Below are positions 20,542 to 57,231 of a DNA stretch of 64,000 bases, piece after piece. Both the position numbers and the translations under genes were made by a program. This stretch comes from Brevundimonas mediterranea (GTDB lineage: Bacteria; Pseudomonadota; Alphaproteobacteria; Caulobacterales; Caulobacteraceae). Numbering within the stretch: the stretch's first letter is position 1; every line of letters starts with the position of its first letter. The notes under the pieces were generated by a model that was not told where the DNA came from, searched no databases, and was given only the letters and a program-made list of their open reading frames with translations. The DNA lies in the NCBI RefSeq assembly GCF_011064825.1, contig NZ_CP048751.1, positions 2,418,001-2,482,000 of the forward strand, read 5' to 3'.

Positions 20542-20601
20542 TACGAAACATTGATCTCCCCCAGGGGTTGATTGATCAGACTTTCAAGGTTTTCCCGGCT
20601 G

Positions 20602-22512: not shown

Positions 22513-22522
22513 GACCCGCAGC

Positions 22523-23767
22523 ATGACCGCCGGCGTGTCTCCCCGGCCGGTCGGGTCGGCCTTCCTGATCGGTTACGCCGTCGCCTATATCGGCGCCTTC
22601 ATCGGCGTGGCGCCCCTGCTTCAGGTGCTCGCGCCCCTCCACGCCGAGATGATCGACGGTCAGGCCAAGGGGCCGTTGCTCAGCCAGGCCCTGTTCTGGG
22701 GCTGTATGGCCGCCGGGCTCGGCAATATCATCGGCGGCGCCCTTAGCGACCGGACACGGTCGCGGCACGGCCGGCGGCGGCCGTGGATCGTGGTCGGCGC
22801 CGTTCTGACGGTCGGCAGTTACGCCGCCATCCAGCAGTCCTCGACCCCTCTGGGACTGATTTTGGGCCTGGTCTGTTTCCAGCTGACCTTCAACATCCTG
22901 CTGGCCCCGCTGATCGCCCTGTTCGCCGACCGGGTGCCCGAGAACCGGCGCAGCGCCATGTCGGCCGTGATGGGCATGGCCTATCCGCTGGCCGCCATGA
23001 TCGGTTCGGTCGTGATGGCCTGGGGGCCGCAGGGCGAGGTGGCGCGCTTCGCGACCCTGGCCGCCGTGGTCCTGGCGGCGACCGTGCCCTTCGCCCTGCT
23101 GTCGCGCGAGGATCCGGCGCCCGCCGACCGGGTGCGGGCGCCCTTGTCAGGGTTTTCTCTGCCCAGCCTGCTGCACCCCTTCGCCGTTCGCGACTTCACC
23201 CTGGCCTGGACCTATCGGTTCCTGGTGGTGACCGGCTATTCGCTGGTGGCCTTCTATCTGCTCTTCTACATCGCCGACGCTATCGGCTTTCCGATCCTGT
23301 TTCCCGGCCGCTCGGCCGAGGCCGGCCATTCGCTGCTGACCGCCATCGCCGTCGTGGGGGTGGTCGGGGTCAGCACCGTCGTCGCCATGGGCGGCTCGCG
23401 CATCACGCGGCGCAAGCCGCTCGCCATCGCCGGCGGGGTGCTGCTGGCCATCGCGGCGGCTGTGCTGGCGACCACTCAGGACTGGACCACGGTGGTCGTC
23501 GCCTTCGCCCTCTATGGGGTGGGCCAGGGCTGCTATGGCGCGATCGACATCGCCCTGATGACCGATGTCCTGCCCTCGGTCGAGGACCGGGGCAAGGATC
23601 TGGGCCTGATCAATCTGGCCGTGACCCTGCCCCAGGCGATCGCGCCCCTGATCGCCCTGGTCCTGCTGGAGAACCTGGGTCTGGACTTCCGCAGCCTGTT
23701 CCTGGCCGCCGCCGCCTGTTTCGGCGGGGCGACCCTGGCGGTGGCCTCGATCAGGCGGGTTCGGTGA
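22523..23767 (+). CDS. MFS transporter, SLC45-like
   Basis: A 414-residue integral membrane protein with about 12 helices. The cytoplasmic loop between helices 2 and 3 reads GGALSDRTRSRHGRRRPW, the MFS signature in the GxxSDRTRSRxGRRRP(W) form typical of the GPH/SLC45 sugar transporter branch. The likely cargo is a disaccharide or glycoside, by family analogy only. I use the ATG at 22523, 10 bp after dxs; the open frame extends upstream into dxs in another frame. It overlaps the convergent PhoD gene by 17 bp. Confidence 0.85.
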   Translation: MTAGVSPRPVGSAFLIGYAVAYIGAFIGVAPLLQVLAPLHAEMIDGQAKGPLLSQALFWGCMAAGLGNIIGGALSDRTRSRHGRRRPWIVVGAVLTVGSYAAIQQSSTPLGLILGLVCFQLTFNILLAPLIALFADRVPENRRSAMSAVMGMAYPLAAMIGSVVMAWGPQGEVARFATLAAVVLAATVPFALLSREDPAPADRVRAPLSGFSLPSLLHPFAVRDFTLAWTYRFLVVTGYSLVAFYLLFYIADAIGFPILFPGRSAEAGHSLLTAIAVVGVVGVSTVVAMGGSRITRRKPLAIAGGVLLAIAAAVLATTQDWTTVVVAFALYGVGQGCYGAIDIALMTDVLPSVEDRGKDLGLINLAVTLPQAIAPLIALVLLENLGLDFRSLFLAAAACFGGATLAVASIRRVR

Positions 23768-25445
23768 CGTCTTCCAGCGGACCCAGACCGGTCGCGGTCT
23801 GAGCCAACCGATAGCGTTTCACCGTCTTGTTCTGATACGGCTTGGCCAGGATGGTCGAGACGGCGCGCAGTTCGCCCACCGCCTGATCCCGGTCCAGGGT
23901 CAGCAGGACATAGCCCTTGGACGCCTGGTCGCAGAACTTGACCTCGGGATTGGCGGCTTCCAGCGCCAGGCCCAGCGGCAGGCCGCCGACCATGTCGCCG
24001 GGCGACGGACTGGAGATGGCCGAGGTCCCGAACTCCACCGCGCGACGCTGGCCGCCGTTGTCATACAGTTCGTTGACCCAGAAGGCGTGGCTGTCGCCGG
24101 CCAGGACGATCGGCTCGACGCCCGCCTGTTTCATCGTCTCGTACAGACGCTCGCGACCGGCCGGATAACCGTCCCAGCTGTCCAGGTTGAACGGCAGGCC
24201 TAGCTTGAACAGCTGGATCGCGGCCTCGACCTGGGGCTGGATATCGGCCGGCAGGCTGGCGATCATCTGCGCCACCTGGGCGGGCGGCAGCATCTGTTCG
24301 ATGTTCGGCCCCTTGACCCGCGCCATGACCACCTGGTTGCCCAGGATCTGCCACGGACGACCGGCGCCCTTGGACTGGCTCATGGCCTCGCCCAGCCAGC
24401 GGCGTTGACCCTCGCCCAGCAGGTCGCGCGACGGCTCCTGACGCTGGGCCTCGAAGGCGGCGATGTCCGGGCGGCCGTCGGCGGTCTTGGGGATGTTGGC
24501 GAAGTCCATCTGTTCGGCGCGGGCCGTCAGACGGGTTTCGACCATGTGCAGGCTGGCCAGATCGCCGAAGTGGAAGCTGCGGTTGATCGCTTCCTTCATG
24601 GCGCCGGCCTTGGCCTCGCGGATCGGCATCCATTCGTAATAGGCGCGAAGGGCCGCCGCCTTGCGCGTGGCGAAGTCGCCTTCGGTCGCCGGCTGATGGT
24701 TCTCGGCCCCCATCATCCAGACGTCGTTGGCGACCTCGTGGTCGTCCCAGACGCAGATGAAGGCGGCGCGGGCGTGGGCGGCCTGCAGATCGGGATCGGT
24801 CTTGTATTGGGCGTGGCGCGTCCGATAGTCGGCCAGGCTGATGATTTCGTGGGGCGGCAGGGGCGCCCGGTTCAGCGGCGCGCCCGTCGCCATGCCGTAG
24901 TCGCCCGGCGCCGCGCCGTATTCGTAGATGTAGTCGCCCAGGTGAACGACGGCGTCCAACCGGTCCAGCTGCGAGATGGCCTCATAGGCGTTGAACAGGC
25001 CGCCCGGATAGAGCTGGCAAGACACCACGGCCAGGTTGACCTGCGGCGTCGCGCCCTGGGGCAGGGTGCGGACCCGACCCGCCGGCGAGGTCACGCCATT
25101 GGCGATGAAGCGATAGAAATACTCCCGACCCGGCTCCAGGCCGCGACCGTTCAGGTCGTGCTTGACGGTGAAGTCGCGCTCGGCCCGGGCGGTCAGGTCG
25201 GTAAAGCGACGCACCATGTCGGTGAAGTCGGCGTCCCTGGCCACTTCAAGAACCACCGCAATCTCCCCGACCGACGGATCGGCCGGGGTGACGCGGGTCC
25301 AGAAGACCGCGGAATGCTGATCCGGATCGCCGCTGGCCACCCCGTGAAGGAAGGCGACCTGACCGGCATGGGCGGTCTGGGCGACGGCGGGCGTCGCCGC
25401 CCCCGCGCCGATCAGTCCCAGAAGGCTGCGGCGATCCAGATTCAT
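23751..25445 (-). CDS. phoD: Alkaline phosphatase D (PhoD), Tat-exported
   Basis: A 564-residue PhoD-family phosphatase/phosphodiesterase. The N-terminus MNLDRRSLLGLIGAG is a twin-arginine signal, then the N-terminal beta domain and the metallophosphatase domain with LAVVSCQLYPGGLFNAYEAI, LDAVVHLGDYIYEYG, CVWDDHEVANDVW and VLAGDSHAFWVNELYD, which carry the Fe/Ca ligands. PhoD enzymes release phosphate from monoesters and diesters in the periplasm and are normally PhoB-regulated; I saw no convincing Pho box. It begins 10 bp after the stop of the TonB receptor upstream, so both are probably one transcript. Confidence 0.93.
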   Translation of the reverse strand: MNLDRRSLLGLIGAGAATPAVAQTAHAGQVAFLHGVASGDPDQHSAVFWTRVTPADPSVGEIAVVLEVARDADFTDMVRRFTDLTARAERDFTVKHDLNGRGLEPGREYFYRFIANGVTSPAGRVRTLPQGATPQVNLAVVSCQLYPGGLFNAYEAISQLDRLDAVVHLGDYIYEYGAAPGDYGMATGAPLNRAPLPPHEIISLADYRTRHAQYKTDPDLQAAHARAAFICVWDDHEVANDVWMMGAENHQPATEGDFATRKAAALRAYYEWMPIREAKAGAMKEAINRSFHFGDLASLHMVETRLTARAEQMDFANIPKTADGRPDIAAFEAQRQEPSRDLLGEGQRRWLGEAMSQSKGAGRPWQILGNQVVMARVKGPNIEQMLPPAQVAQMIASLPADIQPQVEAAIQLFKLGLPFNLDSWDGYPAGRERLYETMKQAGVEPIVLAGDSHAFWVNELYDNGGQRRAVEFGTSAISSPSPGDMVGGLPLGLALEAANPEVKFCDQASKGYVLLTLDRDQAVGELRAVSTILAKPYQNKTVKRYRLAQTATGLGPLEDVTEPA

Positions 25446-25455
25446 CGTTCGATCC

Positions 25456-27963
25456 TCAGAGTTTCAGTTTGAACACCAGGCCGTACGCCGCCGGGCGACC
25501 GGCGATGAAGGTCGGCATGCCCAGGGCGTCGCCGGTGTTGCCGGCGTCCTTGATGTATTCCTCGTCGAGAATGTTCTCGCCGAAGGCTTCGACGCCCCAG
25601 TTGGTCGAGTCCGGGGTGTAGCGGATACGCAGGTTCAACAGACCGTAGGCGTCCTGATATTCGTCCTGGATCAGGTCGGCGACGAAGTTGGCCGTCTGCA
25701 GCGCCGGGATGTCGTTGTCGTCGCTGAAGAAGACCTTGGACTGCCAGGTGTAGGTCGGCTGGACCTCGATCTCGCCGCCGGTCACCGGCAGGCGCCAGGT
25801 CGCGCCGATCGAGGCGGCGTTGTCTGGCGACAGGCGGAACTGGTTGCCGTCGTAGATGCCGTTCTCGAAGCGCGAGTGGTTGTAGGCGTAGGTGGCGAAC
25901 AGGTCGAGCATCGAGGCCACGGCGAAGTTGGCCTGGCCCTCGAAGCCGTAGGACTTGGCCTCGCCGGCGTTGGTGGTGATGAACTGCGTGCCTTGCTGGA
26001 TCGTCGTCTGGAAGTTTTCGTAGTTGTACATGAAGACCGCGCCGTCCACGCGCAGGCGCCCGTCCAGCAGGGCCGATTTGGCGCCGATCTCGTAGCTGTC
26101 GACGGTTTCCGCATCGACCGGGCTGAAGCGCGCCGCGCCGCCGGGGGCGGACGGACCCGAGGCGCTGATCACTTCCGGACGACGGCCCCGTGCATAGTTG
26201 GCGTAGAGATTGGTGTCGTCGGTCAGTTCGTAGCGGGCCGTGACCCGCCAGGTGACGCCGTCGTCTTCCGAGTCATAGTAGGAGAAATCGCCGTTGTTGG
26301 CCGTCGGCTGCGATGTCAGGCCGAACAGCGGGAAGACGCTGGCGGGCAGGTTGGCGAAGGCCGGATTGGCCATGGCGGCCAGGAAGGCCGGCACCTGGGC
26401 CGCCGGGATCGCGCCGGCCTGGATCGCCAGCAGGGCGCCGAGGGCCGACCGGCTATCGACCGAGCTGGCATAGCCGGTGGTCTTGTCGTCGCGGGTGTAG
26501 CGGACGCCAGCCGACATTTCGAACTTGTCGGTGAAGGCGTAGGTGGCGTCGGCGAAGACGTCATAGGACGTCAGTTCCGAGCTGTTGGTCGAGGTCTCGA
26601 TATGGTTCGAGTCGAGATTGGCGGTGATCGGAGCAGCGTAGGCGCCGGCGCCCAACGGCGTCAGCATAGATGTCAGCACGTTACGCGCCACCGTCGGATA
26701 GACCGACAGCGGCAGGGTGTTGTCGCCGACCGCCGTCGGCGATCCGTCCAGCAGCCCGGCCAGTTGTGCCAGAACCAGACGTTCGTCGAACTGGGCCGGG
26801 GCGCGCTGGTAGCCTTCCTCGTGGAACCAGCCGGCGCCGACGAAGCCCGTCAGGCGACCGCCGTTGTCGAAGCCCAGGCGCAGGTCCTGGCTCCATTGTT
26901 CGCCATGGGTCTCTTCCGCCGCCGTCAGGATGGGCAGGGAGACGCCGTCCGCGTCGAAGGTCTCGTAGTTGTCGAACTCGCGATAGGCGGTGGTCGAGTT
27001 CAGGGTCCAGGCCGAATTCAGATTGATCCGGGCCAGACCCGTCACGCCCCAGACTTCGCGGCTCAGGCCCAGCGTCTTGCCGCCGTCGAAATCGCCGCCC
27101 GGCGTCAGGGCCGCGCCCTCCCAGGGCTCCTTGCCGCCCAACACCGCGCCGGTGTTCGGATCGGCCGGTTCGTAGGCGATCGACTTGAACGAGGTGCCCG
27201 AGGCGTGGTCGTTCTGATAGTTGCCGATCACGTCGAACCGCATGGCGTCCGACGGCGCCCAGGCGCCCGACAGACGCACGGCCTTGGTCTCGATGGCGTT
27301 ATAGTCTTCGCCGCCCAGCAGGTTCTCGACCGAACCGCCGCGCGTCTTCAGGCGGGTGGCGAGGCGCAGGCCTCCCGTCTCGCCGACGGGCAGGTTCAGC
27401 GCGCCCTCGACCATCCGATAGTCTTCGTTGCCGGCCTCGATATTGGCGTAGGCTTCGGTCTCACCCGGCTGAGCGCGGTTCTGGACCAGGTTGACGGCGC
27501 CGATCAGGGCGCCGCGGCCGTACAGGGTCGATTGCGGACCCTTGGCGATCTCGACGCGCTCCAGGTCGAACAGTTCGACATAGGAGCCGCGCGACTTGGA
27601 GATCGACACGCCGTCCTGGAACACCGAGACGCGGGGTTCGGCCGTGGCGGCGCCCGAGTCGGAGGTGATGCCGCGCATCACGAAACCGGGGTTGTTGGGC
27701 GACTGGTTCTGCACCAGGAAGCCGGGCACGAAGGCCGACAGCTGTTCGAACTCCTGAATGCCCAGGTCTTCCAGGAACTGGCCGGAATAGGCGGTCAGGG
27801 CGAACGGGACCTCAATGGTCTTCTGTGCGCGCAATTGGGCCGTGACGATGATCTCGTCCAGCGTCGCCGGCTCCGCCGACTGGGCCTGGGCCCCGTGCGC
27901 CGCCGCCATCACGCCGGTCAGCGCCGCGGCAGCCATAAGCCGCGTCTTGAATTCACTCGCCAT
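25456..27963 (-). CDS. TonB-dependent receptor (835 aa)
   Basis: An outer-membrane TonB-dependent receptor. It has a signal peptide ending AHGAQAQ, a TonB-box-like DEIIVTAQL, a plug domain (VPFALTAYSGQFLEDLGIQ, GFVMRGITSD), and a 22-strand barrel ending in YGLVFKLKL. The ATG at 27963 has a GGGGAA Shine-Dalgarno; the frame continues upstream without a signal sequence. The sequence ETxVRLSG, RVTARYELTDDTNLYANYARG and QPTYTWQSKVFF are typical barrel segments of the IroN/CirA-like COG1629 group. It lies upstream of phoD, so the ligand may be a phosphorylated compound; the LacI gene is immediately upstream but separated by 192 bp. Confidence 0.92.
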   Translation of the reverse strand: MASEFKTRLMAAAALTGVMAAAHGAQAQSAEPATLDEIIVTAQLRAQKTIEVPFALTAYSGQFLEDLGIQEFEQLSAFVPGFLVQNQSPNNPGFVMRGITSDSGAATAEPRVSVFQDGVSISKSRGSYVELFDLERVEIAKGPQSTLYGRGALIGAVNLVQNRAQPGETEAYANIEAGNEDYRMVEGALNLPVGETGGLRLATRLKTRGGSVENLLGGEDYNAIETKAVRLSGAWAPSDAMRFDVIGNYQNDHASGTSFKSIAYEPADPNTGAVLGGKEPWEGAALTPGGDFDGGKTLGLSREVWGVTGLARINLNSAWTLNSTTAYREFDNYETFDADGVSLPILTAAEETHGEQWSQDLRLGFDNGGRLTGFVGAGWFHEEGYQRAPAQFDERLVLAQLAGLLDGSPTAVGDNTLPLSVYPTVARNVLTSMLTPLGAGAYAAPITANLDSNHIETSTNSSELTSYDVFADATYAFTDKFEMSAGVRYTRDDKTTGYASSVDSRSALGALLAIQAGAIPAAQVPAFLAAMANPAFANLPASVFPLFGLTSQPTANNGDFSYYDSEDDGVTWRVTARYELTDDTNLYANYARGRRPEVISASGPSAPGGAARFSPVDAETVDSYEIGAKSALLDGRLRVDGAVFMYNYENFQTTIQQGTQFITTNAGEAKSYGFEGQANFAVASMLDLFATYAYNHSRFENGIYDGNQFRLSPDNAASIGATWRLPVTGGEIEVQPTYTWQSKVFFSDDNDIPALQTANFVADLIQDEYQDAYGLLNLRIRYTPDSTNWGVEAFGENILDEEYIKDAGNTGDALGMPTFIAGRPAAYGLVFKLKL

Positions 27964-28155
27964 CGTTTTTCCCCAAGCTTGGCCTGAACGGCGATCAGTA
28001 ACCGGCGGTGATGTCGCCGAGGCGACACTGCGAACGCCGATGCATGACGTTGAGGCGGCGGATGAAAGACAATTAAGCCGTGTACGTTTCATTAACCGCC
28101 CAGGCCGCGACGACAGCGGCGTCGGGCGTTTGGCCGAGCGGGTCCGGACGACGGA

Positions 28156-29223
28156 TCAGGTCGTCGGCGGCGCCGTGGAGCCTCTGGGGGCGAAGCCGAA
28201 ATCGACCATGCTCTGCCGGGGCAGTTCGGCGTCGCCGGCCGTGGAGCGGATCAGCAGTTCGGCGGCGACCGCGCTCATTTCGGCGATAGGCTGAATGACG
28301 GCGGTCATGTCGGCGAACCGGGCCAGGGGCGTGTTGTCGAAGCTGATGACCGACAGGTCGGCAGGGACCGCCAGGCCGTTCCGTCTGGCCGTGCGCAGGG
28401 CCGCGTGGGCCATGCGGTCGTTGCTGGCCAGAACGGCGGTGGGCCGCGACGGCAGGGCCAGCAGGGTCTCCATGGCGGCGACGCCGGACTCGTAGGAAAA
28501 ATCGCCGCGCGCGACCAGCGTCTCGTCCAGGCCGTGCGCCGAGGCCGACATGGCGCGGCGATACCCCTCCAGCCGCGCCCCGCTGACCGCATATTCCTCG
28601 CTGCCGGTTATGAAGCCGATGCGGACATGGCCCAGGCCCAGCAAATGGTCGGTCGCAAAGGCGGCCGCCTTGGCGTCGTCCATCGACACCGCGAATCCGT
28701 CCCCTTCTGCGATCGAGGCGATCCGGGCGAAGGGCAGGCCCAGCTGGCTCAGCAGGCCGGTGATGGCCGGGTTCTCAGAGTGGGGAGGGGTCAGGATGAC
28801 GCCGTCGGGGTGCAGGGCGGCGATGGCCCCGCGCACCGCCGCATCGACGTGGTCCGAATGGGTGTCGACCAGTTCGAAGATCATCCGATAGCCGTGGGCC
28901 TCGCACTTCAGCATGCCGCCCATCAGCATCTGATCGACCCAGTCGGTGCCCTCGCCGGACTTCCAGCCCTCGATGGTCCGGTCTCGGTCGTTCAGCGCCA
29001 TCAGCAGATAGGAGCGTGATCCCCCCATTCGCCGCGCCGCCAGACTGGGAACATAGCCCAGCTTGGCCACGGCGGCGCGTACACGCTCCTGCACAACCGG
29101 TCGAACATTCGGCTCGTTGTTGATGACCCGCGACACGGTCTGCAGCGAAACGCCCGCCTCGGCGGCGACGTGTTTGATGGTGACGGCGCGACGCAAACTC
29201 TGATCCCTTATCCCCTGCGCCAT
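28156..29223 (-). CDS. LacI-family transcriptional regulator
   Basis: A 355-residue regulator. The N-terminal helix-turn-helix and hinge (AVTIKHVAAEAGVSLQTVSR, INNEPNVRPVVQERV, LGYVPSLAARRM) is classic LacI, followed by a periplasmic-binding-protein-like ligand domain (GSRSYLLMALND, VISFDNTPLARFADMTAVIQP). Such regulators sense a sugar or glycoside and usually repress neighbouring uptake and hydrolysis genes. The gene follows the halogenases by 39 bp on the same strand, so it may be autoregulated as the last member of the GH3-TonB-halogenase unit. A LacI-type palindrome is found at 38156-38169. Confidence 0.93.
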   Translation of the reverse strand: MAQGIRDQSLRRAVTIKHVAAEAGVSLQTVSRVINNEPNVRPVVQERVRAAVAKLGYVPSLAARRMGGSRSYLLMALNDRDRTIEGWKSGEGTDWVDQMLMGGMLKCEAHGYRMIFELVDTHSDHVDAAVRGAIAALHPDGVILTPPHSENPAITGLLSQLGLPFARIASIAEGDGFAVSMDDAKAAAFATDHLLGLGHVRIGFITGSEEYAVSGARLEGYRRAMSASAHGLDETLVARGDFSYESGVAAMETLLALPSRPTAVLASNDRMAHAALRTARRNGLAVPADLSVISFDNTPLARFADMTAVIQPIAEMSAVAAELLIRSTAGDAELPRQSMVDFGFAPRGSTAPPTT

Positions 29224-29262
29224 TGTGTCAGCCTTGGCCGCGCGAAGGCAAGCACGCCGGTA

Positions 29263-30819
29263 TCAGGCCGGCACGGCCAATGGGGCGGGCAGGTCCACCG
29301 ACGGGGCTGGACAATGGGTGTCGATGAAGGCCTGATGCGTCGGCAGGTCGGCGACGAAGGCGTTCAGAATATTGGCGGCGCGGTCCATCTCGTCGGTCAG
29401 GCCGGTGGAATCGATCCGGTCCACCAGCGGCGGATAGGACCGGGGCCTCACTCCCATGCCGTCCATCACCGCATACCAGCTGACATTGCGGAACAACGGG
29501 TCCAGCGCCTCGACAAGGCTGCCGTTGGCGCGGAAGACCTCCAGCTTGTGCTGCAGCCCTTCGGGCAGGACCATGTCGCGGCATTGCCGCCAGAAGGCCG
29601 TGTCGTCCCGCCGCGTCAGGGCGTAGTGCAGGATGATGAAATCGCGAATCTCCTCGTAATCCACCGTCATCCGCCGATTGTACTCGGCCGCCAGGTTCGG
29701 ATCGCAGTCCAGGTCCGGCATCAGGCGGAACAGGAAGTCCATGCCGCGATAGATCAGGTGGATGGCCGTCGATTCCAGCGGTTCGATAAACCCGCTCGCC
29801 AGACCCAGCGACAGGACGTTCTTGTCCCAGATCTTCTCGCGCACTCCGGTCTTGAACGGCACCACCATCGGATTGACCACCGGCCGCCCTTCGACCTGCG
29901 CCAACAGGCGCGCCGTCGCCTCGTCGTCCGACATGTAGCGGCTGCAGAAGACATGGCCGTTGCCGGTGCGGTGCTGCAACGGGATGCGCCAGCGCCAGCC
30001 GCAGTCCTGAGCCTGAGCCAGGGTATAGGGTGTGGGCGGCCCCACATTCTCGGTCTGGACGGCGATGGCCCGATCGCACATCAGCCATTCGGACCAGTCC
30101 GTATAGCCGACGCCAAGGGTCTTGCCGATCAGCAGGGCGCGGAAGCCGGTGCAGTCGATGAAGAAGTCCGCCTCGACCGTCTGGCCCGATTTCAGCTTCA
30201 GCCCGCTGACGAAGCCGTCGGGCCGCGTCATCACATCCTCGACGATCCCCTCGGTGCGTTTGACGCCCCGCGCCTCGGCGAAGTCGCGCAGATAACGGGC
30301 CACCCGTTTCGCATCGACATGGACGGCGTAGGACGCGCCACCGATCGGGGTGCGCTGGGCCTTGAACGGCAGCATGAAACGCCCTTGGGACGCCATCCGG
30401 GCCGCAGCGGCGAAATCCATCAGCGGCCGGTCATAACCGTTCATCCGCGCCTTCAGCCAGACCGGATAGAAGTCGCTGATATCCACCGGAACCCCAACGG
30501 CGCCGAACGGGTGGAAATAGCTCTCGCCCTTCTGCGTCCAGTCCTCGAACTGGATGCCCAGCTTGAAACTGGCCTGGGTCTTCTGGATGAAGTCGCGCTC
30601 GTCGATGCCCAGCCGCTTCAGCATTTCCAGAAAGGGCGGCACGGTGGACTCGCCGACGCCGATCGTGCCGATGTCGTCGGACTCGACCAGTTCGATCTCG
30701 GCCATCCGCCCCTTGAAATGTTCGGCCATCAGGGCGGCGGCGACCCAGCCGGCGGTGCCCCCGCCGACAATGCAGATCTTCTTCAGGGGGCGGCGGGGCT
30801 GGTCCATGTCGGGTCTCAT
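29263..30819 (-). CDS. Flavin-dependent tryptophan-halogenase-like protein (1)
   Basis: A 518-residue flavin-dependent halogenase homologue. It has an N-terminal Rossmann motif KICIVGGGTAGWVAAAL, the halogenase signature GWRWRIPL (W-x-W-x-I-P), a Lys in TQASFKLGIQF that should correspond to the catalytic Lys of PrnA/RebH, and the EPLEST segment holding the conserved Glu. These enzymes use FADH2, oxygen and halide to make HOCl/HOBr and halogenate an aromatic, commonly an indole. No flavin reductase is adjacent. The ATG at 30819 overlaps the stop of the second halogenase gene by 4 bp, so the two are translationally coupled. Confidence 0.9.
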   Translation of the reverse strand: MRPDMDQPRRPLKKICIVGGGTAGWVAAALMAEHFKGRMAEIELVESDDIGTIGVGESTVPPFLEMLKRLGIDERDFIQKTQASFKLGIQFEDWTQKGESYFHPFGAVGVPVDISDFYPVWLKARMNGYDRPLMDFAAAARMASQGRFMLPFKAQRTPIGGASYAVHVDAKRVARYLRDFAEARGVKRTEGIVEDVMTRPDGFVSGLKLKSGQTVEADFFIDCTGFRALLIGKTLGVGYTDWSEWLMCDRAIAVQTENVGPPTPYTLAQAQDCGWRWRIPLQHRTGNGHVFCSRYMSDDEATARLLAQVEGRPVVNPMVVPFKTGVREKIWDKNVLSLGLASGFIEPLESTAIHLIYRGMDFLFRLMPDLDCDPNLAAEYNRRMTVDYEEIRDFIILHYALTRRDDTAFWRQCRDMVLPEGLQHKLEVFRANGSLVEALDPLFRNVSWYAVMDGMGVRPRSYPPLVDRIDSTGLTDEMDRAANILNAFVADLPTHQAFIDTHCPAPSVDLPAPLAVPA

Positions 30820-32345
30820 GCGGCGGAGGCGGCAGGGTCTAGCCCCGCCAGGAATTGGGCGTGTTCGGGGGTGCGGGCGACCAGATCGGCGATATTGGCG
30901 CGCATCTCGGCCAGGCTGCGCGCCAGATAGGCCGGGTCCATGGCGTCCACGGCGGGATCATGATGGTCGGGGTACAGGCCGAAGCCGTCATAGATGGCCA
31001 GCCAGCTGGCCGGGTGGAACATTTCCCACCGATAGCGGACGAACTGGCCCCGCGCGGTCCACAGGGCGATCTTGCGCTCCAGCGTCTCGGGGACCGGCAT
31101 CTCGCGACAGTCGCGCCAGAAGTCCGTGTCGGTCCGCCGGTTCAGCTTGTAGTGCAGGATGATGAAGTCGCGGACCCGCTCCATCTCGCGCGCGGTCTGG
31201 TCGTTGAACTCGTCCAGGATCGGCTGGGCGAAGCGGCGGTCGGGGAACAGGGCTTTCAGCCGTTCGATCCCGGTCTCGATCAGGGCGATACTGGTGCTCT
31301 CCAGTGGCTCCAGGAAGCCGGACGACAGACCTATGGCGACGCAGTTCTTGGCCCACGCCTGCGATCGCCGACCGGGGCGGAAGGGAATGCGGCGCGGCTC
31401 CGTCAGCGGATCGCCCAGCAGGTGTGGCATAAGCTCGGCCAGGGCCTGATCGTCGCTCAGATGGGCGCTGGAGAAGACCAGTCCGTTGCCCGCCCGGTGT
31501 CGCAGCGGGATCCCCCACTGCCAGCCGGCCGATCGGGCGGTGACGCGGGTGAAGGGCGCCGGCGCGTCGCCGGGCCGGTTCTCGCTCTGCACCGCATAGG
31601 CGGCGTCGCACGGCAGCCAGCGGCCCCAGTCCTCGAACCCGACGCCCAGCGCCTCGCCGATCACCAGCCCCTTGAAGCCCGAGCAGTCGACGAAAAGATC
31701 GCCCTCGACCTCGCGTCCGTCGTCCAGGGTCAAGGCGCGCACGAAACCGTCCTCGGGCCGCAGCTCGACCGAGCGGATGCGGGCGTCGATCCGGGCGCAG
31801 CCCCCGGCCTCGGCATAGGCGCGCAGATGCTGGGCGAACAGGCCGGCGTCCAGATGAAGCGCCCAGTCGAACACCGACAACTGCGACGGCGGATGGGGCG
31901 AGGGCAGGGTGAACTTGCCGCCCGCGGCCAGCGCCGCCCCCAGCGAATAGGCCGCCAGCGGAGCGGCGTCGCCCGCGCGGCGCTGTTTCAGCCAGTAGTG
32001 ATGAAAGCCGATCCCTTTGACGTCCTGTCCATACAGGCCGAAGGGATGGATGAAGTCCGAGCCCGGCCCGGACCAGTCCAGAAAACGAATACCCAGTTTG
32101 CAGGTCGCCTGGGTCGCGCGCATCACGTCGTCGTCGCGCAGCCCCAACTGGCCATAGAAGCGACGGATGGTGGGAATGGTCGCCTCGCCCACGCCGATCG
32201 TGCCGATGTCGGACGACTCGACCACGGTGATCTTCAGCGGCGCAGTGCGGAAATGCTGGACCAGGGCCGCAGCCGTCATCCAGCCGGCGGTGCCGCCGCC
32301 GACGATGACGACAGAACGGATGCGAGGATCGTCGATCTCATCCAT
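30816..32345 (-). CDS. Flavin-dependent tryptophan-halogenase-like protein (2)
   Basis: A 509-residue paralogue of the adjacent halogenase. It has VVIVGGGTAGWMTAAAL (FAD site), the catalytic-Lys segment TQATCKLGIRFLDW, the W-x-W-x-I-P motif as AGWQWGIPLRHR, and SGFLEPLESTSIALI with the conserved Glu. All hallmark residues are intact, so both copies look active. They clearly differ in the region that lines the substrate pocket, so they probably act on different compounds or positions. The start at 32345 (MDEIDDPRIR) is preferred; an upstream ATG at 32384 overlaps a terminator hairpin. The leader therefore begins right after the receptor gene's terminator. Confidence 0.9.
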   Translation of the reverse strand: MDEIDDPRIRSVVIVGGGTAGWMTAAALVQHFRTAPLKITVVESSDIGTIGVGEATIPTIRRFYGQLGLRDDDVMRATQATCKLGIRFLDWSGPGSDFIHPFGLYGQDVKGIGFHHYWLKQRRAGDAAPLAAYSLGAALAAGGKFTLPSPHPPSQLSVFDWALHLDAGLFAQHLRAYAEAGGCARIDARIRSVELRPEDGFVRALTLDDGREVEGDLFVDCSGFKGLVIGEALGVGFEDWGRWLPCDAAYAVQSENRPGDAPAPFTRVTARSAGWQWGIPLRHRAGNGLVFSSAHLSDDQALAELMPHLLGDPLTEPRRIPFRPGRRSQAWAKNCVAIGLSSGFLEPLESTSIALIETGIERLKALFPDRRFAQPILDEFNDQTAREMERVRDFIILHYKLNRRTDTDFWRDCREMPVPETLERKIALWTARGQFVRYRWEMFHPASWLAIYDGFGLYPDHHDPAVDAMDPAYLARSLAEMRANIADLVARTPEHAQFLAGLDPAASAA

Positions 32346-32363
32346 GGACGAATACCAATACGC

Positions 32364-32398
32364 GAAAAAAGAGGCCGGCGACACGAATGTCGCCGGCC
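32364..32398 (-). terminator. Intrinsic terminator between TonB receptor and halogenases
   Basis: On the minus strand a perfect 11-bp stem GGCCGGCGACA / TGTCGCCGGCC with a 4-nt loop is followed by TCTTTTTT. It starts 18 bp after the receptor stop and ends 18 bp before the halogenase start, so it is well placed to attenuate transcription from the GH3-receptor genes into the halogenase-LacI genes. Confidence 0.88.
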
Positions 32399-32416
32399 AG
32401 TCTGCTCAGGAAGAGA

Positions 32417-35400
32417 TCAGAAGCGAGCGCGCACGCCGAGCATGTAACGGGGCTCGAACTGATTGCGGCTGTGGAACTGCTTCTGGCCGGGTTCGAACTC
32501 GAAGTAGTATTCCTCGATTTCACCGAAGACGTTCGAGCCGTTGGCGTAGACGGTCACCATGTCGTTGACGTCATAGGTGATGTTGGCGTCCACGTACTGC
32601 GACGTATCCTGGTAGATCGGGATTGCGCCAAAGGTGTTGGCCAGTCGCGGCGTGCGATAGTTCCACGCCACACGAACCTGCAGACGGTCGCCCTGGTACC
32701 AGACGGCGGCGTTCATCGAATGCTCGGAGTTGTCGGGGAAGGGCAGGTCCTCGCCCGACAGGTTCTGCGCGTTCTGTGAACTGTCCGAATAGGTATAGCT
32801 GCCGTCGAAGCCGAAATCGCTCCAGATCGGCGTGTCGATGAAGTCCGACAGGCCGATCTTGGCGCCCAGTTCGACGCCCTGCAGTTCGCCACCCTCGCCC
32901 TGGACTGGGCGATTGACGTCGACCATGCGGCGAATGATGCCGTCGCCGTCAGGATAGGAGCCGCTCAGGGGCACGGTTTCGCGCTTGACGAAGCTCTCGA
33001 TGTTCAGGCGGAAAATGCCCGCATTGAACATGGTCGCCGGGCCGAAATAATACTCCAGCGCCAGATCGTAATTCGTCGAGCGCCAGGGATCGAGTTCGAC
33101 CGTGCCGCCGATGGTCGCGCCGGTGACGCGTCGGATGCCGAGGGGCGGGGCGCTGGGATCGTCTGGCGTCGGACCCAGGGAGTCCACCGTCGAGATCGTC
33201 ACGCCACCGCCGTAGTTGCCGAGATCCAGAGGGATCATCGTCTTGGCGTAGGACGCGCGAAGTTTCAGCTTGTCGGTGAAATCGTACCGGAAGTTCGCCG
33301 TCGGCAGCCAGTCCGTATAGCTTCGGCTCGAGATGGTGTCGCCGACGTCGTTGTTGGTGTCGCCATAGGCACGCGTATCACCCGTCAGATTTTGGCGAGC
33401 CCGCAGTTCCGTGCGCACCATCCGCACGCCCAGGTCTCCGGTCAGATTGCCGAAGCCCAGGGCGAAGTTGGTGTAGGCGCTGTCCTCGTACAGATCGACG
33501 TCATAAGTGTTGCCCGGAATGATGACCTCGTAGGCGTTGCCGAACACGCGCTCCTGGAAAGCGCGCACGTCGTCGAAGTCGCGCGGATCAGCCACCCACA
33601 CGCCCGGCAGGCCTGAGGTGATCGAGCCGTAGTCGGACATGAAATAGGTGTTGTTGTTCTCGCGCAGCAAGGTCGGACGGTTGACCGTATAGCCTTGGAA
33701 GCAGGTCGGGGTGTTCGCGACGGTCCCAGCGGTGCAACTGTTTGGCGTCGCATCGACCGGAAGCGACGCGTTGAAGCCGGGGTTGGTGACGAACTCACCC
33801 GACTGGCACTGCGTGTTGTCCATCACGACGTCGATGGCTTTCCACTGGGCCGCGCAGCCCGCCTGGTTCCCTGCGCCTTGTCCGGCGTAGAAGTCGGAGA
33901 ACAGGTGGAAGTTGCGGATTTCGACCTCTCGGCCGCTGTGCCGGACGCCGACGTCGATCTTGTTGACGAAGCCGAACAGCGGCGTGTCCTGGAACTCATA
34001 GCCGCCGTCGAAGCGCACCACGGTAAGGTCGGAGTTGTTGCGCTGGTTGCCTTCCGACGAATAGGCGCCGACCGTGTAGGAATCGAGATTGGACATGTAG
34101 TCGGTCAGCGGCACGGTCCCCAGACCGCCCGGCAGCGGCGTGTCGAAACCGCTCCAGGCCAGACTGGAGCCCGTCTGGCTGATGTGCAACTGCGGGTCCG
34201 CGCCATAGCCGAACGGGTTGGGCGAAATGTAACGTCCGCCCTGGCTGCCGACGACGCCGTTGGAATAGCGCGAGGCGGGATAAAGCGCCGCGATCGAGGC
34301 GGGATAGAAGGTGCCGCGCGTCCGGTCCGCGCCTTGGCGGAACAGGGTGAAGGTACGATCAGGACCGTATTCCCAGTTGGACAGATCGCCCTGGACCTGA
34401 CCGTTCATACTCTCCAGGTTGGCTTCGGCCTTGATGGCCCTTGCGCTGAAGGTGAACGGGCCGCCCTTGTCGTAATCCAGCTCCAGATTGAAGTTCTTGG
34501 ACTCGTTCTCGGTCGCCCGGTTCACGGTGAATGAGTTCATCCACCAGACGTCGAGGTCGTATTCGCTGACATTCAACCAGGGCAGACCATTGGGGCCGCC
34601 GTTCACGCCGGTCTCGACGAAGTCTGTCGGCGTCGTCCAACCCAGCCCGCTCCAGCGGTTCGAGATGTTCAGGCCGGCGGCGCGGTTGTATTCCTGCTGG
34701 TGGGTGTAGAAGACCTCGGCCGTCAGGCGGACGCCGTCCTCGATGTCGAACTGGAAGGCGCCGTTCAGGCTGTAGCGTTCGCGCTCAACGGCCCGGCTGA
34801 AGCTGTCGTAACCATGAGGCGAAATCCAGTTGGGATCGGTGGAATCAGGACCGCTCCAGTCGTTGTTGCCCAGAACGCTCTGGCTGATGCCCGAATAGTT
34901 ATTGCCCAGGTTCGACTTGCTCATCACCCCCGAGATCATCACGCCCAGCCGGTCGCCGCGCCAGTTCAGCAGGCCGTTGACCAGATAGTCGTCTTCCGCC
35001 GTGCGTTCGCCGGTCTGATACTCGGCGGCGGTGAAGACGGTCGGGCCGTAGTCGAAGTCCATCGGGCGGCGCGTCCGCAGGTCGATGGTGCCGGAGATGC
35101 CGGAAAGGGCGTTCGACACGTCCTGCGACTTGAACACGACGATCGAGTTCATCAATTGCGACGGCACGTCGTTCAGGTTCGGCTGGGCCGTACCCAGGTT
35201 GCCGGGCGCCAGATATTGTTCACCGTTCAGCAGGGTGATCACCTGAGGCAGGCCGCGGATGTTGACGGTCGAACCCTCGCCCGCGGACCGCTGCACCTGG
35301 ATGCCCGGAATACGCTGCAGGGCGTCGGCGACGGTGACGTCGGGCAGTTTGCCGATGTCTTCCGCCGAGATGGCGTCGACCAGAGCGGATTCGTTGCGCT

Positions 35401-35578
35401 TGATGTTGATGGCCTGGGCCTGCGACGCCCGGATGCCGGTGACGACGATTTCGCCGACCTCGGTCGGGTCTTGGGGCGCCGGGATCGGCGCCTGTTCCGG
35501 GGTCTGGGCATAGGCCGGCGCGACAAGCGCCGAACTCGCCATCAAGGCCGCCAGCATGGGCCTCTTGTGGATTCTCAT
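32417..35578 (-). CDS. TonB-dependent receptor, large Xanthomonas/Caulobacter type (1053 aa)
   Basis: A 1053-residue outer-membrane receptor. The signal peptide (MRIHKRPMLAALMASSALVAPAYAQ) is followed by a TonB-box-like EIVVTGIRASQ and a plug with DAISAEDIGKLPDVTVADAL, VNIRGLPQVITLLNGEQ, and a long barrel ending RYMLGVRARF. This plug signature and length match the TonB-Xanth-Caul group (TIGR01782), which in Xanthomonas and Caulobacter takes up carbohydrates and sits next to glycoside hydrolases. Start at 35578 is set by the strong AGGAGGG ribosome-binding sequence and the signal peptide; longer frames upstream lack it. It follows the GH3 gene by 49 bp. Confidence 0.93.
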   Translation of the reverse strand: MRIHKRPMLAALMASSALVAPAYAQTPEQAPIPAPQDPTEVGEIVVTGIRASQAQAINIKRNESALVDAISAEDIGKLPDVTVADALQRIPGIQVQRSAGEGSTVNIRGLPQVITLLNGEQYLAPGNLGTAQPNLNDVPSQLMNSIVVFKSQDVSNALSGISGTIDLRTRRPMDFDYGPTVFTAAEYQTGERTAEDDYLVNGLLNWRGDRLGVMISGVMSKSNLGNNYSGISQSVLGNNDWSGPDSTDPNWISPHGYDSFSRAVERERYSLNGAFQFDIEDGVRLTAEVFYTHQQEYNRAAGLNISNRWSGLGWTTPTDFVETGVNGGPNGLPWLNVSEYDLDVWWMNSFTVNRATENESKNFNLELDYDKGGPFTFSARAIKAEANLESMNGQVQGDLSNWEYGPDRTFTLFRQGADRTRGTFYPASIAALYPASRYSNGVVGSQGGRYISPNPFGYGADPQLHISQTGSSLAWSGFDTPLPGGLGTVPLTDYMSNLDSYTVGAYSSEGNQRNNSDLTVVRFDGGYEFQDTPLFGFVNKIDVGVRHSGREVEIRNFHLFSDFYAGQGAGNQAGCAAQWKAIDVVMDNTQCQSGEFVTNPGFNASLPVDATPNSCTAGTVANTPTCFQGYTVNRPTLLRENNNTYFMSDYGSITSGLPGVWVADPRDFDDVRAFQERVFGNAYEVIIPGNTYDVDLYEDSAYTNFALGFGNLTGDLGVRMVRTELRARQNLTGDTRAYGDTNNDVGDTISSRSYTDWLPTANFRYDFTDKLKLRASYAKTMIPLDLGNYGGGVTISTVDSLGPTPDDPSAPPLGIRRVTGATIGGTVELDPWRSTNYDLALEYYFGPATMFNAGIFRLNIESFVKRETVPLSGSYPDGDGIIRRMVDVNRPVQGEGGELQGVELGAKIGLSDFIDTPIWSDFGFDGSYTYSDSSQNAQNLSGEDLPFPDNSEHSMNAAVWYQGDRLQVRVAWNYRTPRLANTFGAIPIYQDTSQYVDANITYDVNDMVTVYANGSNVFGEIEEYYFEFEPGQKQFHSRNQFEPRYMLGVRARF

Positions 35579-35627
35579 CTCGTTTTCCCTCCTCATTGGC
35601 GCCGCGTTTTTGTTGTGCGGCATTGGC

Positions 35628-37916
35628 TCAAGGCTTGATGATCGACCCTGAAAGCGTGACGTTCGCGCTCAACCCCGCCTCGGCGGCGTCGCGGGCGACG
35701 GTGATGCGGTAATCGCCCGGCGCGATGCGCCAGCCGGGCAGTGCGGTGTCATATTCGGCCAGGATGCGCGGCTCGGCCTTCAGCACGATGCGACGCGTCT
35801 CGCCCGGCGACAGCGTCATCCGCGCAAAGGCGGCCAGACGCCTGGGCTGGTCGGCCGAGGCGACATACAGCTGGGCCACCTCGGCTCCCGCCCGGTCGCC
35901 ACTGTTGGTCACATCGACGGCGACGCTCAGACCCTGGGTGTTCGAGACCGCCAGGTTGGAATAGGCGAAGCTTGTGTAGCTGAGGCCGTAGCCGAACGGG
36001 AACAGCGGCTTGCGCCCCTCGCGTTCGTACCAGCGATAGCCGACGTCCGACCCCTCGACATAATCGACGGCGAAGGGCTGCAGCACGGCCGCCTGCGGCG
36101 CCCCGGGGTTGGAGGCGGCGGCGGCGTCCACGGCCTTCATCTCGGCCAGGCCTGGCACGGTCGGGCGCGGCGCCTGATCGGCCGAGGCGGGGAAGGTGAT
36201 CGGCAGGCGGCCGGACGGATTGACCTCGCCGAACAGGATGCGGGCGATGGCTTCGCCGCCGCGCTGGCCGGGGTACCAGGCCTGGATCACCGCCGGGGGC
36301 TTCTCCAGCCAAGGCATCAGCACCGGCCCGCCGGTCTCCAGCACCACCACCGTCCTGGCGTTGGCGGCGGCCACGGCCTCGATCAGCCCGTCCTGGTCGT
36401 CCGGCAGCGACAGGCTCTCGACGTCCTGGGCCTCTGTGGTCCACTGGGTGGCGAAGACGACGGCGATGTCCGCCGCGCGCGCCGCCGCAGCCGCCGCCGC
36501 AGGATCCCTGCCATCGACATAGGTCACGGTCGCGTCCGGCGTGACGGCGCGGATCGCGTTCAGCGGCGAGGACGCATGCCAGGTCATCCGCGCGAAAGAC
36601 GCCGCAGCGCCTGAGGTCAGCGGAATCTCGACCGGCGCGCCGCCGACCGACCGCACCTGGGACGATCCTCCGCCCGACAGCACGCCGACATCGGCATGGC
36701 CGCCGATGAGCACGATCCGCTTCGCCGTCCTGGCCAGGGGCAGGACCCCGCCCTCGTTCTTCAGCAGCACGATCCCCGCCTCGGCCGCGCGCTGGGCGAT
36801 CTCGGCGTTCCGGGCGTAGTCGATGGGCTGCGGGGTCGTGACCACCGGCGCGTCCAGCACCCCGGTCTCGATCAGGCCGACCAGCAGGCGACGCACCATG
36901 TCGTCCAGCCGCGCCTCGGGGATCCGCCCGGCGTCCAGGGCTTCACGGAAGGGGGCGTCGAAATACAGGGCCCGGTCCAGCTCCTGGCCCGAGGCCTGGT
37001 CCAGTCCCGCCAGGGCCGCCTTCTCGGTCGAATGGACCGCGCCCCAGTCGGACATGACCCAGCCGTCGTATTTCCAGTCGCGCTTCAGCACCTGGTTTAG
37101 CAGGAAGTCGTTCTCGCAGGCCCAGTCGCCATTGACCTTGTTGTAGGCGCACATGACCGAGCCGGGATTTCCCCGCTCGATGGCGATCTGGAAGGCCAGC
37201 AGGTCGCTTTCGCGCAGGGACGCCTCGTCCAGGCGCGCGTCCATGATCATTCGCCCGGTCTCTTGCGCGTTGAAGGCGAAATGCTTGATGGTCGAGACGA
37301 TCTTGTTCGACTGGACGCCGCGGATATGGTCCCCGGCCATGACCCCGGCCAGCAGCGGATCCTCGCCCAGATATTCGAAATTCCGCCCGTTCCACGGGTC
37401 GCGCGTCAGGTTCACCCCGCCGGCCAGCAGGATGTTGAAGGTCTTGGCTCGCGCCTCGGACCCGATCATGGCCCCGCCGGCATAGGCGATCTCGGGATCG
37501 AAGGTGGCGGCCGTCGCCAGGCTGGAGGGCAGGGCGGTGGCGACGTCGCCCTTGCGCTGTTCGACCTGGTTGGCGACGCCCAGGCTGGCGTCGCTTTCGC
37601 GCAGGGTCGGTATGCCCAGGCGGGGTATGCCGGGGATATGGCCGGCCGAAGGAATCATGTCGGCGACGGGAGCGCCGGGCGTCTGCGCGGCCATCGGCGG
37701 GAAATAGCCGTGGATCAGCTGCAGCTTCTCGTCACGCGTCATCCGGGCCAGCAAGGCGTCGGCCCGGGCGGCGGCTTCGGTTGGGACGGGGGTGGCCGAG
37801 GCGGGTTCGCTCGAGACTGCCCGGCCGTCCGTCTGGGCGAAGACCGCGACAGGCGTCATGCCGATGGCCGTCGCCAGGGCGAGACGACTGATCAGCGACA
37901 ACGAGAGGAAATTCAT
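35628..37916 (-). CDS. Exported GH3 family beta-glycosidase
   Basis: A 762-residue periplasmic glycoside hydrolase family 3 protein. A signal peptide (MNFLSLSLISRLALATAIGM...VFAQ) precedes the (beta/alpha)8 domain with the conserved GARAKTFN...GGVNLTRDPWNGRNFEYLGEDP and VSTIKHFAFNAQE, the nucleophile Asp in GWVMSDWGA (about residue 290), the alpha/beta sandwich domain, and a C-terminal fibronectin-type-III-like domain (FPFGYGLSYTSFAYS). This is a typical beta-glucosidase/beta-xylosidase layout. The ATG at 37916 has a GGGAG Shine-Dalgarno and starts the signal peptide directly. It is the first gene of the minus-strand cluster. Confidence 0.94.
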   Translation of the reverse strand: MNFLSLSLISRLALATAIGMTPVAVFAQTDGRAVSSEPASATPVPTEAAARADALLARMTRDEKLQLIHGYFPPMAAQTPGAPVADMIPSAGHIPGIPRLGIPTLRESDASLGVANQVEQRKGDVATALPSSLATAATFDPEIAYAGGAMIGSEARAKTFNILLAGGVNLTRDPWNGRNFEYLGEDPLLAGVMAGDHIRGVQSNKIVSTIKHFAFNAQETGRMIMDARLDEASLRESDLLAFQIAIERGNPGSVMCAYNKVNGDWACENDFLLNQVLKRDWKYDGWVMSDWGAVHSTEKAALAGLDQASGQELDRALYFDAPFREALDAGRIPEARLDDMVRRLLVGLIETGVLDAPVVTTPQPIDYARNAEIAQRAAEAGIVLLKNEGGVLPLARTAKRIVLIGGHADVGVLSGGGSSQVRSVGGAPVEIPLTSGAAASFARMTWHASSPLNAIRAVTPDATVTYVDGRDPAAAAAAARAADIAVVFATQWTTEAQDVESLSLPDDQDGLIEAVAAANARTVVVLETGGPVLMPWLEKPPAVIQAWYPGQRGGEAIARILFGEVNPSGRLPITFPASADQAPRPTVPGLAEMKAVDAAAASNPGAPQAAVLQPFAVDYVEGSDVGYRWYEREGRKPLFPFGYGLSYTSFAYSNLAVSNTQGLSVAVDVTNSGDRAGAEVAQLYVASADQPRRLAAFARMTLSPGETRRIVLKAEPRILAEYDTALPGWRIAPGDYRITVARDAAEAGLSANVTLSGSIIKP

Positions 37917-38283
37917 ACCGGCTCCCAAACTCATCCAGGGACGGCGACGGCCGTCAGAACAGAAGTTGGGACGCGGCGCACACCATCGGGGATGACGGCG
38001 GGCAGCCGACATCGTTGCTCGCCGAGGCGAGCTTTTCGATCATGTTTGCGGATGGCGTTTGTCGCGCCGTGGTTCGCCGGCCCGAATGGCCGATGATCGT
38101 TCCGCTCCCTGCACGGAGGATCTTCGTCCTCTCGCAAGCAAAGGAAAGCACGGATTGAGAGCGTTCACAATACGAAATGGATGTAATGGAACGGCGTTAT
38201 GCCTGATGGGCGGATCACAAGTCGTTTCAGTCAGAGGTCCAGTCAAACGCCGCAGCGCAAGTCCGCCCGGGCGCACCTAAGCG
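37917..38283 (-). other. Promoter region of the GH3-TonB cluster
   Basis: No gene is visible in these 367 bp. The segment is less GC-rich than the surrounding genes between about 38100 and 38220, as expected for a promoter. It contains the LacI-type palindrome at 38156-38169; on the minus strand TATTGT (38167-38172) overlaps it and could be a -10 element, which would place the operator over the transcription start. The long leader (about 240 nt) before GH3 is unexplained. Confidence 0.5.
38156..38169. promoter_or_regulatory. LacI-type operator candidate
   Basis: The 14-bp sequence TGAGAGCGTTCACA is an imperfect palindrome centred on CpG, with 10 of 14 positions symmetric. LacI-family operators typically have a central CG flanked by TGA(g/a)A(a/g). 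The cluster contains its own LacI-family gene at 28156-29223. Assignment of this site to that regulator is inference. Confidence 0.45.
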
Positions 38284-57155: not shown

Positions 57156-57231
57156 TGGTAGGCCCGGAGGGACTCGAACCCCCAACCAGACCGTTATGAG
57201 CGGTCGGCTCTAACCATTGAGCTACAGGCCC
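57156..57231 (-). tRNA. tRNA-Ile2 (CAU anticodon, lysidine type)
   Basis: A 76-nt cloverleaf on the minus strand with encoded CCA: acceptor GGGCCTG / CGGGCCT (one G-U at position 1 and a U-G at 6), D-arm TAGCTCAATGGTTAGAGC, anticodon stem GACCG / CGGTC with loop CTCATAA, and T-arm GGGGG-TTCGAGT-CCCTC. The anticodon is CAU. C4-G69 and C5-G68 are the pairs recognised by the lysidine synthase TilS, which distinguishes tRNA-Ile2 (reads AUA after C34 is modified) from elongator tRNA-Met. The D-loop and anticodon loop are also like E. coli ileX. Confidence 0.9.

Follow-up and report, generated by a model that had tools for sequence, protein, structure and literature searches.

Halogenase genes of the type found in Brevundimonas mediterranea (contig NZ_CP048751.1) are coupled to a TonB-dependent receptor (TBDR) gene rather than to the GH3 glycosidase gene at the head of the same locus. 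The locus in question lies in a window of 64,000 nucleotides, to which the coordinates below refer, and comprises genes for GH3, a TonB-Xanth-Caul receptor (TBDR1), two flavin-dependent halogenases (halA and halB), a LacI-family regulator, a second TonB receptor (TBDR2) and PhoD. An earlier note on this stretch had listed these as seven consecutive minus-strand genes, and all are present in that order (Table 1). It had also regarded BrvH, a halogenase of known structure, as a relative, whereas halA is BrvH itself, identical to PDB 6FRL across 510 amino acids (aa).

To count what halogenases travel with, we searched 60 Caulobacteraceae genomes, including that of the window, with PF04820. Up to 22 candidates were scored per genome, so the count is a lower bound; 19 weak short matches and the four halogenases of the window genome were dropped beforehand, and two pieces in one genome (G014) were merged. 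From the 59 other genomes, at least 96 full or nearly full-length halogenases were left; they form 70 clusters and come from 21 genomes. A TonB receptor lay within 3 kb of 70 of the 96, and 62 followed a receptor in an unbroken same-strand run, defined as one in which only halogenase, SapC, Cupin_8, DUF6445 or GH3 genes intervene. Such runs were found for 50 of 70 halogenases scoring at least 500 bits and for 5 of 7 scoring below 370 bits. Fifty-eight clusters had a receptor somewhere in the fetched stretch. Because the outer-membrane receptors of L103, L135 and L157 were recognized by Pfam and missed by the profiles used for counting, these receptor counts are underestimates. Within the genus, one of five other genomes carried a full-length halogenase, with its receptor (L123) 2.2 kb away on the opposite strand. 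Within 8.5 kb, GH3 was near just 27 of the 96 halogenases and LacI near 37. The functional link that the earlier note drew between GH3, receptor and halogenases therefore divides: its GH3 half falls, as the GH3 profile used here found no such gene within 8.5 kb of 69 of the 96 halogenases, and its receptor half stands.

The same coupling was seen against a random expectation. Across seven genomes, 48 of 69 halogenases were at most 3 kb from a TonB-Xanth-Caul receptor, where random placement (from rounded genome sizes) gives 3.1. Viewed in reverse, 40 of 130 TonB-Xanth-Caul receptors had a halogenase within 3 kb, the 130 being those among the matches listed after 20 lower-scoring or split rows were dropped.

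Relatives of BrvH were sought in genome contigs by a pattern-based scan, which yielded 61 named loci from Alpha-, Beta- and Gammaproteobacteria; genes were called on 64 loci, namely these, the window locus and two further loci of the window genome. The receptor-halogenase run is kept in 52 of the 61 named loci and in all three classes, and the full order GH3-TBDR-halA-halB-LacI recurs in Brevundimonas and Sphingomonas relatives. Among the 64, 38 have a receptor followed on the same strand by two halogenases; GH3 is directly upstream on that strand in 22 of these, LacI directly downstream in 25, and the gap between the halogenases is -14 to 11 bases in 36. The window genome itself holds four halogenases in three loci, and the two other than halA and halB likewise adjoin GH3, a TonB receptor and LacI. 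Pairwise distance correlations, which are raw and include shared species descent, were 0.870 for TBDR-halA, 0.948 for TBDR-halB and 0.880 for halA-halB (38 loci), compared with 0.514 for halA-GH3 and 0.562 for TBDR-GH3 (29 loci). GH3 was replaced by a poorly related GH3, or absent, in loci where receptor and halogenases remain. Neighbouring families included GH1, GH2, GH13, GH20, GH27, GH30 and sugar transporters (from 80 of the 123 neighbours without a label, with 25 of the 125 matched families listed), and a separate Pfam inspection of halogenase neighbours found GH92 and GH2.

While carbohydrate-uptake (CUT) loci, BrvH and the second halogenase adjoining it are already known, no paper on coupling between halogenases and TonB receptors appeared among the titles and abstract beginnings of the open-access matches listed. 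The word 'halogenase' is also absent from papers on Shewanella sugar regulons (PMC2996990) and LacI regulons (PMC4052901).

A terminator-like hairpin stands between TBDR1 and halA. Among 87 receptor-halogenase junctions, 54 carry such a hairpin at the same position (2.0 in shuffles); this set, like that of 209 halogenases below, is pooled and holds duplicates, as some genomes entered both through the named loci and through the genome survey. Hairpins were found in 3 of 11 TBDR-SapC and 1 of 5 halogenase-GH3 junctions, in 1 of 64 junctions between halogenases, and in none of 30 halogenase-LacI or 27 GH3-TBDR junctions. They also follow 19 of 38 unpaired TonB-Xanth-Caul receptors, and 12 of 39 receptors with another same-strand gene next, compared with 36 of 536 other genes. 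Because the hairpin occurs behind unpaired receptors too, we read it as attenuation and not as a dedicated switch, and infer that halogenase expression is attenuated: low read-through would likely yield much receptor and little halogenase. Receptor and halogenases are thus probably co-expressed, but unequally. A plain single operon was rejected, given the hairpin before halA.

Upstream of GH3 we identified a LacI-type operator, the imperfect palindrome ATTGTGAACGCTCTCAAT, for which 0.02 matches are expected. When up to one mismatch is allowed, its core, TTGWGARCGYTCWCAA, is present in 24 of the 26 loci that have an orthologous LacI and in none of 34 other loci (0.2 sites in shuffled sequence); the groups were set by LacI identity and position, with L040, L041, L060 and L065 in neither. 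The two loci of the first group lacking a one-mismatch operator, L016 and L019, carry two-mismatch sites. In six loci (L012, L017, L032, L039, L049 and L056) the operator stands before the receptor; the GH3 is poorly related (26-29%) in five of them and none was found in L032, which makes the receptor a LacI target in its own right. With a TonB receptor above the TIGR01782 cut-off, a degradative GH3 and a LacI regulator all in place, assignment of the locus to the LacI-controlled CUT type, as the earlier note had proposed, is well supported by its predicted genes and operator. Its inclusion of TBDR2 and PhoD did not hold: the two are present together in 4 of the 61 named loci (fragments of TBDR2 lie at the contig end of L009), and we consider them lineage-specific neighbours outside the conserved locus.

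The window genome has two further operator sites, one 203 bp upstream of a GH3 gene with an Exop_C domain and the other 22 bp upstream of a GH5 gene. The same LacI would presumably serve both, and the genes behind them make beta-glucans a plausible inducer. For Caulobacterales, three LacI-type regulators, BglR1-3, have been predicted for beta-glucoside operons, according to the part of PMC4052901 drawn on here. Near these two sites lie L257:3336-3932 (-) and L258:6805-7677 (+), which share N-terminal sequence and are putatively transposase-like by eye.

Table 1. Features of the halogenase locus and its flanks
Feature	Position	Strand	Basis or remark
LacI-type operator palindrome	38154-38171	not assigned	239 bp upstream of GH3 start at 37916
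GH3 glycosidase	35628-37916 (longest open reading frame (ORF) to 38012)	-	Pfam PF00933, PF01915, PF14310; signal-peptide-like start by eye
TBDR1, TonB-Xanth-Caul receptor	32417-35623	-	TIGR01782 475.9 bits, cut-off 310
Terminator-like hairpin, then U-tract, between TBDR1 and halA	32373-32398	-	11-bp stem, z -3.42
halA (BrvH), flavin-dependent halogenase	30816-32348 (longer GTG-start ORF to 32384)	-	
halB, second flavin-dependent halogenase	29263-30819 (or 30807)	-	PF04820 610.5 bits
LacI-family regulator	28156-29223 (or 29196)	-	PF00356 and PF13377
TBDR2, siderophore-type TonB receptor	25456-28092 (or 27963)	-	domain/family profile matches
PhoD phosphatase	23751-25445	-	PF09423
MFS transporter, just beyond PhoD	22523-23767	+	PF07690

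For GH3, all NCBIfam equivalogs fell below their cut-offs, and a sequence search of the PDB with TBDR1 found no relative at E 0.001. The window MFS protein mostly shares 25-35% identity with its counterparts at the other loci, where the MFS gene comes after LacI in most cases, and its role as inner-membrane partner in sugar uptake is possible but uncertain. Elsewhere in the window are a 1-deoxy-D-xylulose-5-phosphate synthase gene (20602-22512, +), an equally long antisense ORF (20584-22524) without a Pfam or NCBIfam match, an RNase P RNA (RF00010; 62861-63250, +) and a tRNA (57159-57231, -).

The identity of halA with BrvH places its start at the ATG at 32348; the alternative GTG start falls within the hairpin. 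The products of halA and halB are 42.8% identical and both retain the catalytic lysine and glutamate and WxWxIP. Their loop segments are equally long (36 and 61), and neither has the long loop that closes over bound tryptophan, the feature of free-tryptophan halogenases; the absence of this loop from BrvH is also described in the part of PMC5945002 considered here. The closest PDB match of halB is 6Y1W, and a protein search with halB, capped at 8000 scored candidates, found nothing beyond further relatives. As far as the published accounts were available to us, BrvH and Xcc4156 have open pockets and no activity on free tryptophan, their natural substrate is unknown despite structures, and the authors suggest peptide substrates (PMC5945002; PMC7336383). 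BrvH brominates free indole, with bromide preferred, but its activity is low (PMC5945002, in the same part); together with the open pocket, this weighs against indole being what the enzyme naturally acts on. The genome has a single flavin reductase matched by PF01613 (G000:C1:2227673-2228107); it is distant from the halogenases and could supply them with reduced flavin.

The catalytic lysine is kept in 202 of 209 halogenases. The other seven (L109, L112, L124, L144, L152, L153 and L164) have S, T or A in its place and have lost the glutamate too; all of them occupy inner positions in runs of three or four halogenases, lying between active copies behind one receptor. L064, similarly the inner gene of its run, has lost the glutamate alone, and one more sequence has an altered glutamate motif. 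This placement hints that inactive inner halogenases may form mixed complexes with active ones as non-catalytic partners. In relatives, the halogenases are also accompanied by FIH/JMJD5-like Cupin_8 proteins and by DUF6445, which has a 2-oxoglutarate (2OG) oxygenase fold; both partners bear a likeness to protein hydroxylases. Three loci of the order TBDR-halogenase-SapC-Cupin_8-fusion encode a halogenase fused to DUF6445 (L043:10067-12244, L045:9956-12220 and L062:9974-12208). The invariant DUF6445 residues H117, D119, H213 and R231 correspond to the HxD, H and R motif of 2OG oxygenases. Since a sequence search of the PDB with DUF6445 gave no meaningful match, a fold comparison was needed; the predicted model matched 2OG-oxygenase folds, of both sugar-directed and protein hydroxylases, and a protein prolyl hydroxylase is one candidate role for DUF6445.

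We tentatively favor, at somewhat less than an even chance, the explanation that what the halogenases modify is a protein or peptide, most plausibly the cognate TonB receptor. The open pocket, the inactivity on free tryptophan and the peptide suggestion of the structural studies fit such a substrate, and the protein gene retained alongside the halogenases is that of the receptor. Operator, GH3 and receptor form a LacI-regulated carbohydrate uptake unit, with the halogenase pair and the LacI gene behind a probably attenuating terminator. Working at low catalytic levels, the halogenases, which form a receptor-coupled family, would brominate or otherwise oxidize exposed aromatic side chains, and in relatives might act beside the 2OG oxygenases. 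A wider version appears rather doubtful to us: that an oxidative enzyme set coupled to nutrient receptors in proteobacteria, and made under the receptor's sugar regulator, adds bromine or hydroxyl groups to these receptors after translation, with the inactive halogenases of triplets as binding partners. The set would consist of BrvH-type halogenases, FIH-like Cupin_8 and DUF6445, with SapC.

Several observations weigh against receptor modification. To our knowledge, no modified receptor has been described. Comparing 75 non-redundant paired receptors (of 96, at least 850 aa) with a random 60 of 86 unpaired ones, we found no tryptophan column both general in and specific to the paired group (best, 0.44 versus 0.02), and tryptophan content was equal (14.9 and 15.2 per 1000); receptor tryptophan was therefore rejected as a marker of halogenase pairing. 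Of the 38 TBDR1-type receptors, 36 or 37 share each of nine tryptophans, which proves nothing as this set has no contrast group. Paired receptors fall mostly into few clades (9 label changes versus 44.8 in shuffles), so that shared descent explains part of the pairing. The coupling is less frequent among halogenases scoring 370-500 bits, where just 7 of 19 belong to a run, and LacI tracks halA almost as well as the receptor does (0.838, 35 loci). As for the oxygenases, the Foldseek matches of DUF6445 place HygX and KanJ, which are sugar-directed, higher than protein hydroxylases, and the window locus has no SapC, Cupin_8 or DUF6445. The negative tryptophan comparison is why we hold a protein target below even and keep small-molecule routes open.

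One such route, which we judge unlikely, is that the sugar regulator activates production of a small halogenated compound for signaling or defense, such as a bromoindole. It would account for the closeness of halA, halB and LacI downstream of a LacI operator and for the acceptance of indole by BrvH (PMC5945002, in part), but Pfam profiles matched no biosynthetic neighbor at the locus, the linkage of the halogenases is to the receptor, and the one antiSMASH cluster reported for Brevundimonas BAL3 in the part of that paper drawn on is a bacteriocin. Distinctly unlikely, in our estimate, is the route proposed in the earlier note, in which TBDR1 imports an aryl- or indolyl-glycoside, GH3 frees the aglycone and the halogenases modify or detoxify it. 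The shared operator, the position of GH3 immediately before the receptor in 22 of the 38 loci and the bromination of free indole agree with this chain, which is nevertheless unsupported: GH3 is near a minority of halogenases, follows them poorly in distance and is exchanged or absent, the varied neighboring glycosidases suggest many glycans and argue against a single GH3-freed aglycone, and the indole activity is low (PMC5945002, as above). Least probable is linkage without function, the halogenases hitch-hiking on a mobile receptor unit with no task in uptake: their patchy presence across the family and genus and the few clades of paired receptors would fit it, but the run is kept across three proteobacterial classes, the catalytic lysine is retained in nearly all copies, and three separate loci in one genome each have receptor, GH3 and LacI.

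The counts given here shift the search for BrvH and Xcc4156 substrates from small indoles and aglycones to the TonB receptor or another protein made with it. Were such a protein the target, common bacteria of aquatic and plant-associated habitats would use halogenation to modify proteins in connection with nutrient uptake.

The piuC gene is linked to a TonB receptor gene. The pseudomonal PiuC-type 2OG oxygenase (PDB 9QN4) matches DUF6445 in fold, which is not membership, and its system differs in serving iron uptake without a halogenase; DUF6445, moreover, is not in the window. MibH, a peptide tryptophan halogenase, resembles the enzymes studied here in its open substrate site, which the authors propose as a hint at peptide substrates (PMC5945002; PMC7336383), but Xcc4156 shares 26% identity with MibH, and BrvH groups apart from MibH, in the portion of PMC7336383 drawn on. 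Xcc4156 and other bromination-preferring halogenases of Xanthomonas share with BrvH an open pocket and 45% identity (PMC7336383, same portion). A further known system is BrvH with its 'gene 13' from Brevundimonas BAL3/Botany Bay: BrvH, the same protein as halA, is 100% identical to a BAL3 protein, and its adjoining halogenase shows 42.7% identity, compared with 42.8% here (PMC5945002, in part). The difference is that TonB and receptor terms are absent from the text of that paper available to us, where receptor and regulator go undiscussed. The CUT loci of Xanthomonas and Caulobacter share with the window locus the adjacency of TonB receptor, degradative enzyme and sugar regulator; words with 'halogen-' are absent from the main text describing them (PMC1790865, as far as available), and to this layout the window locus adds two halogenases after the receptor.

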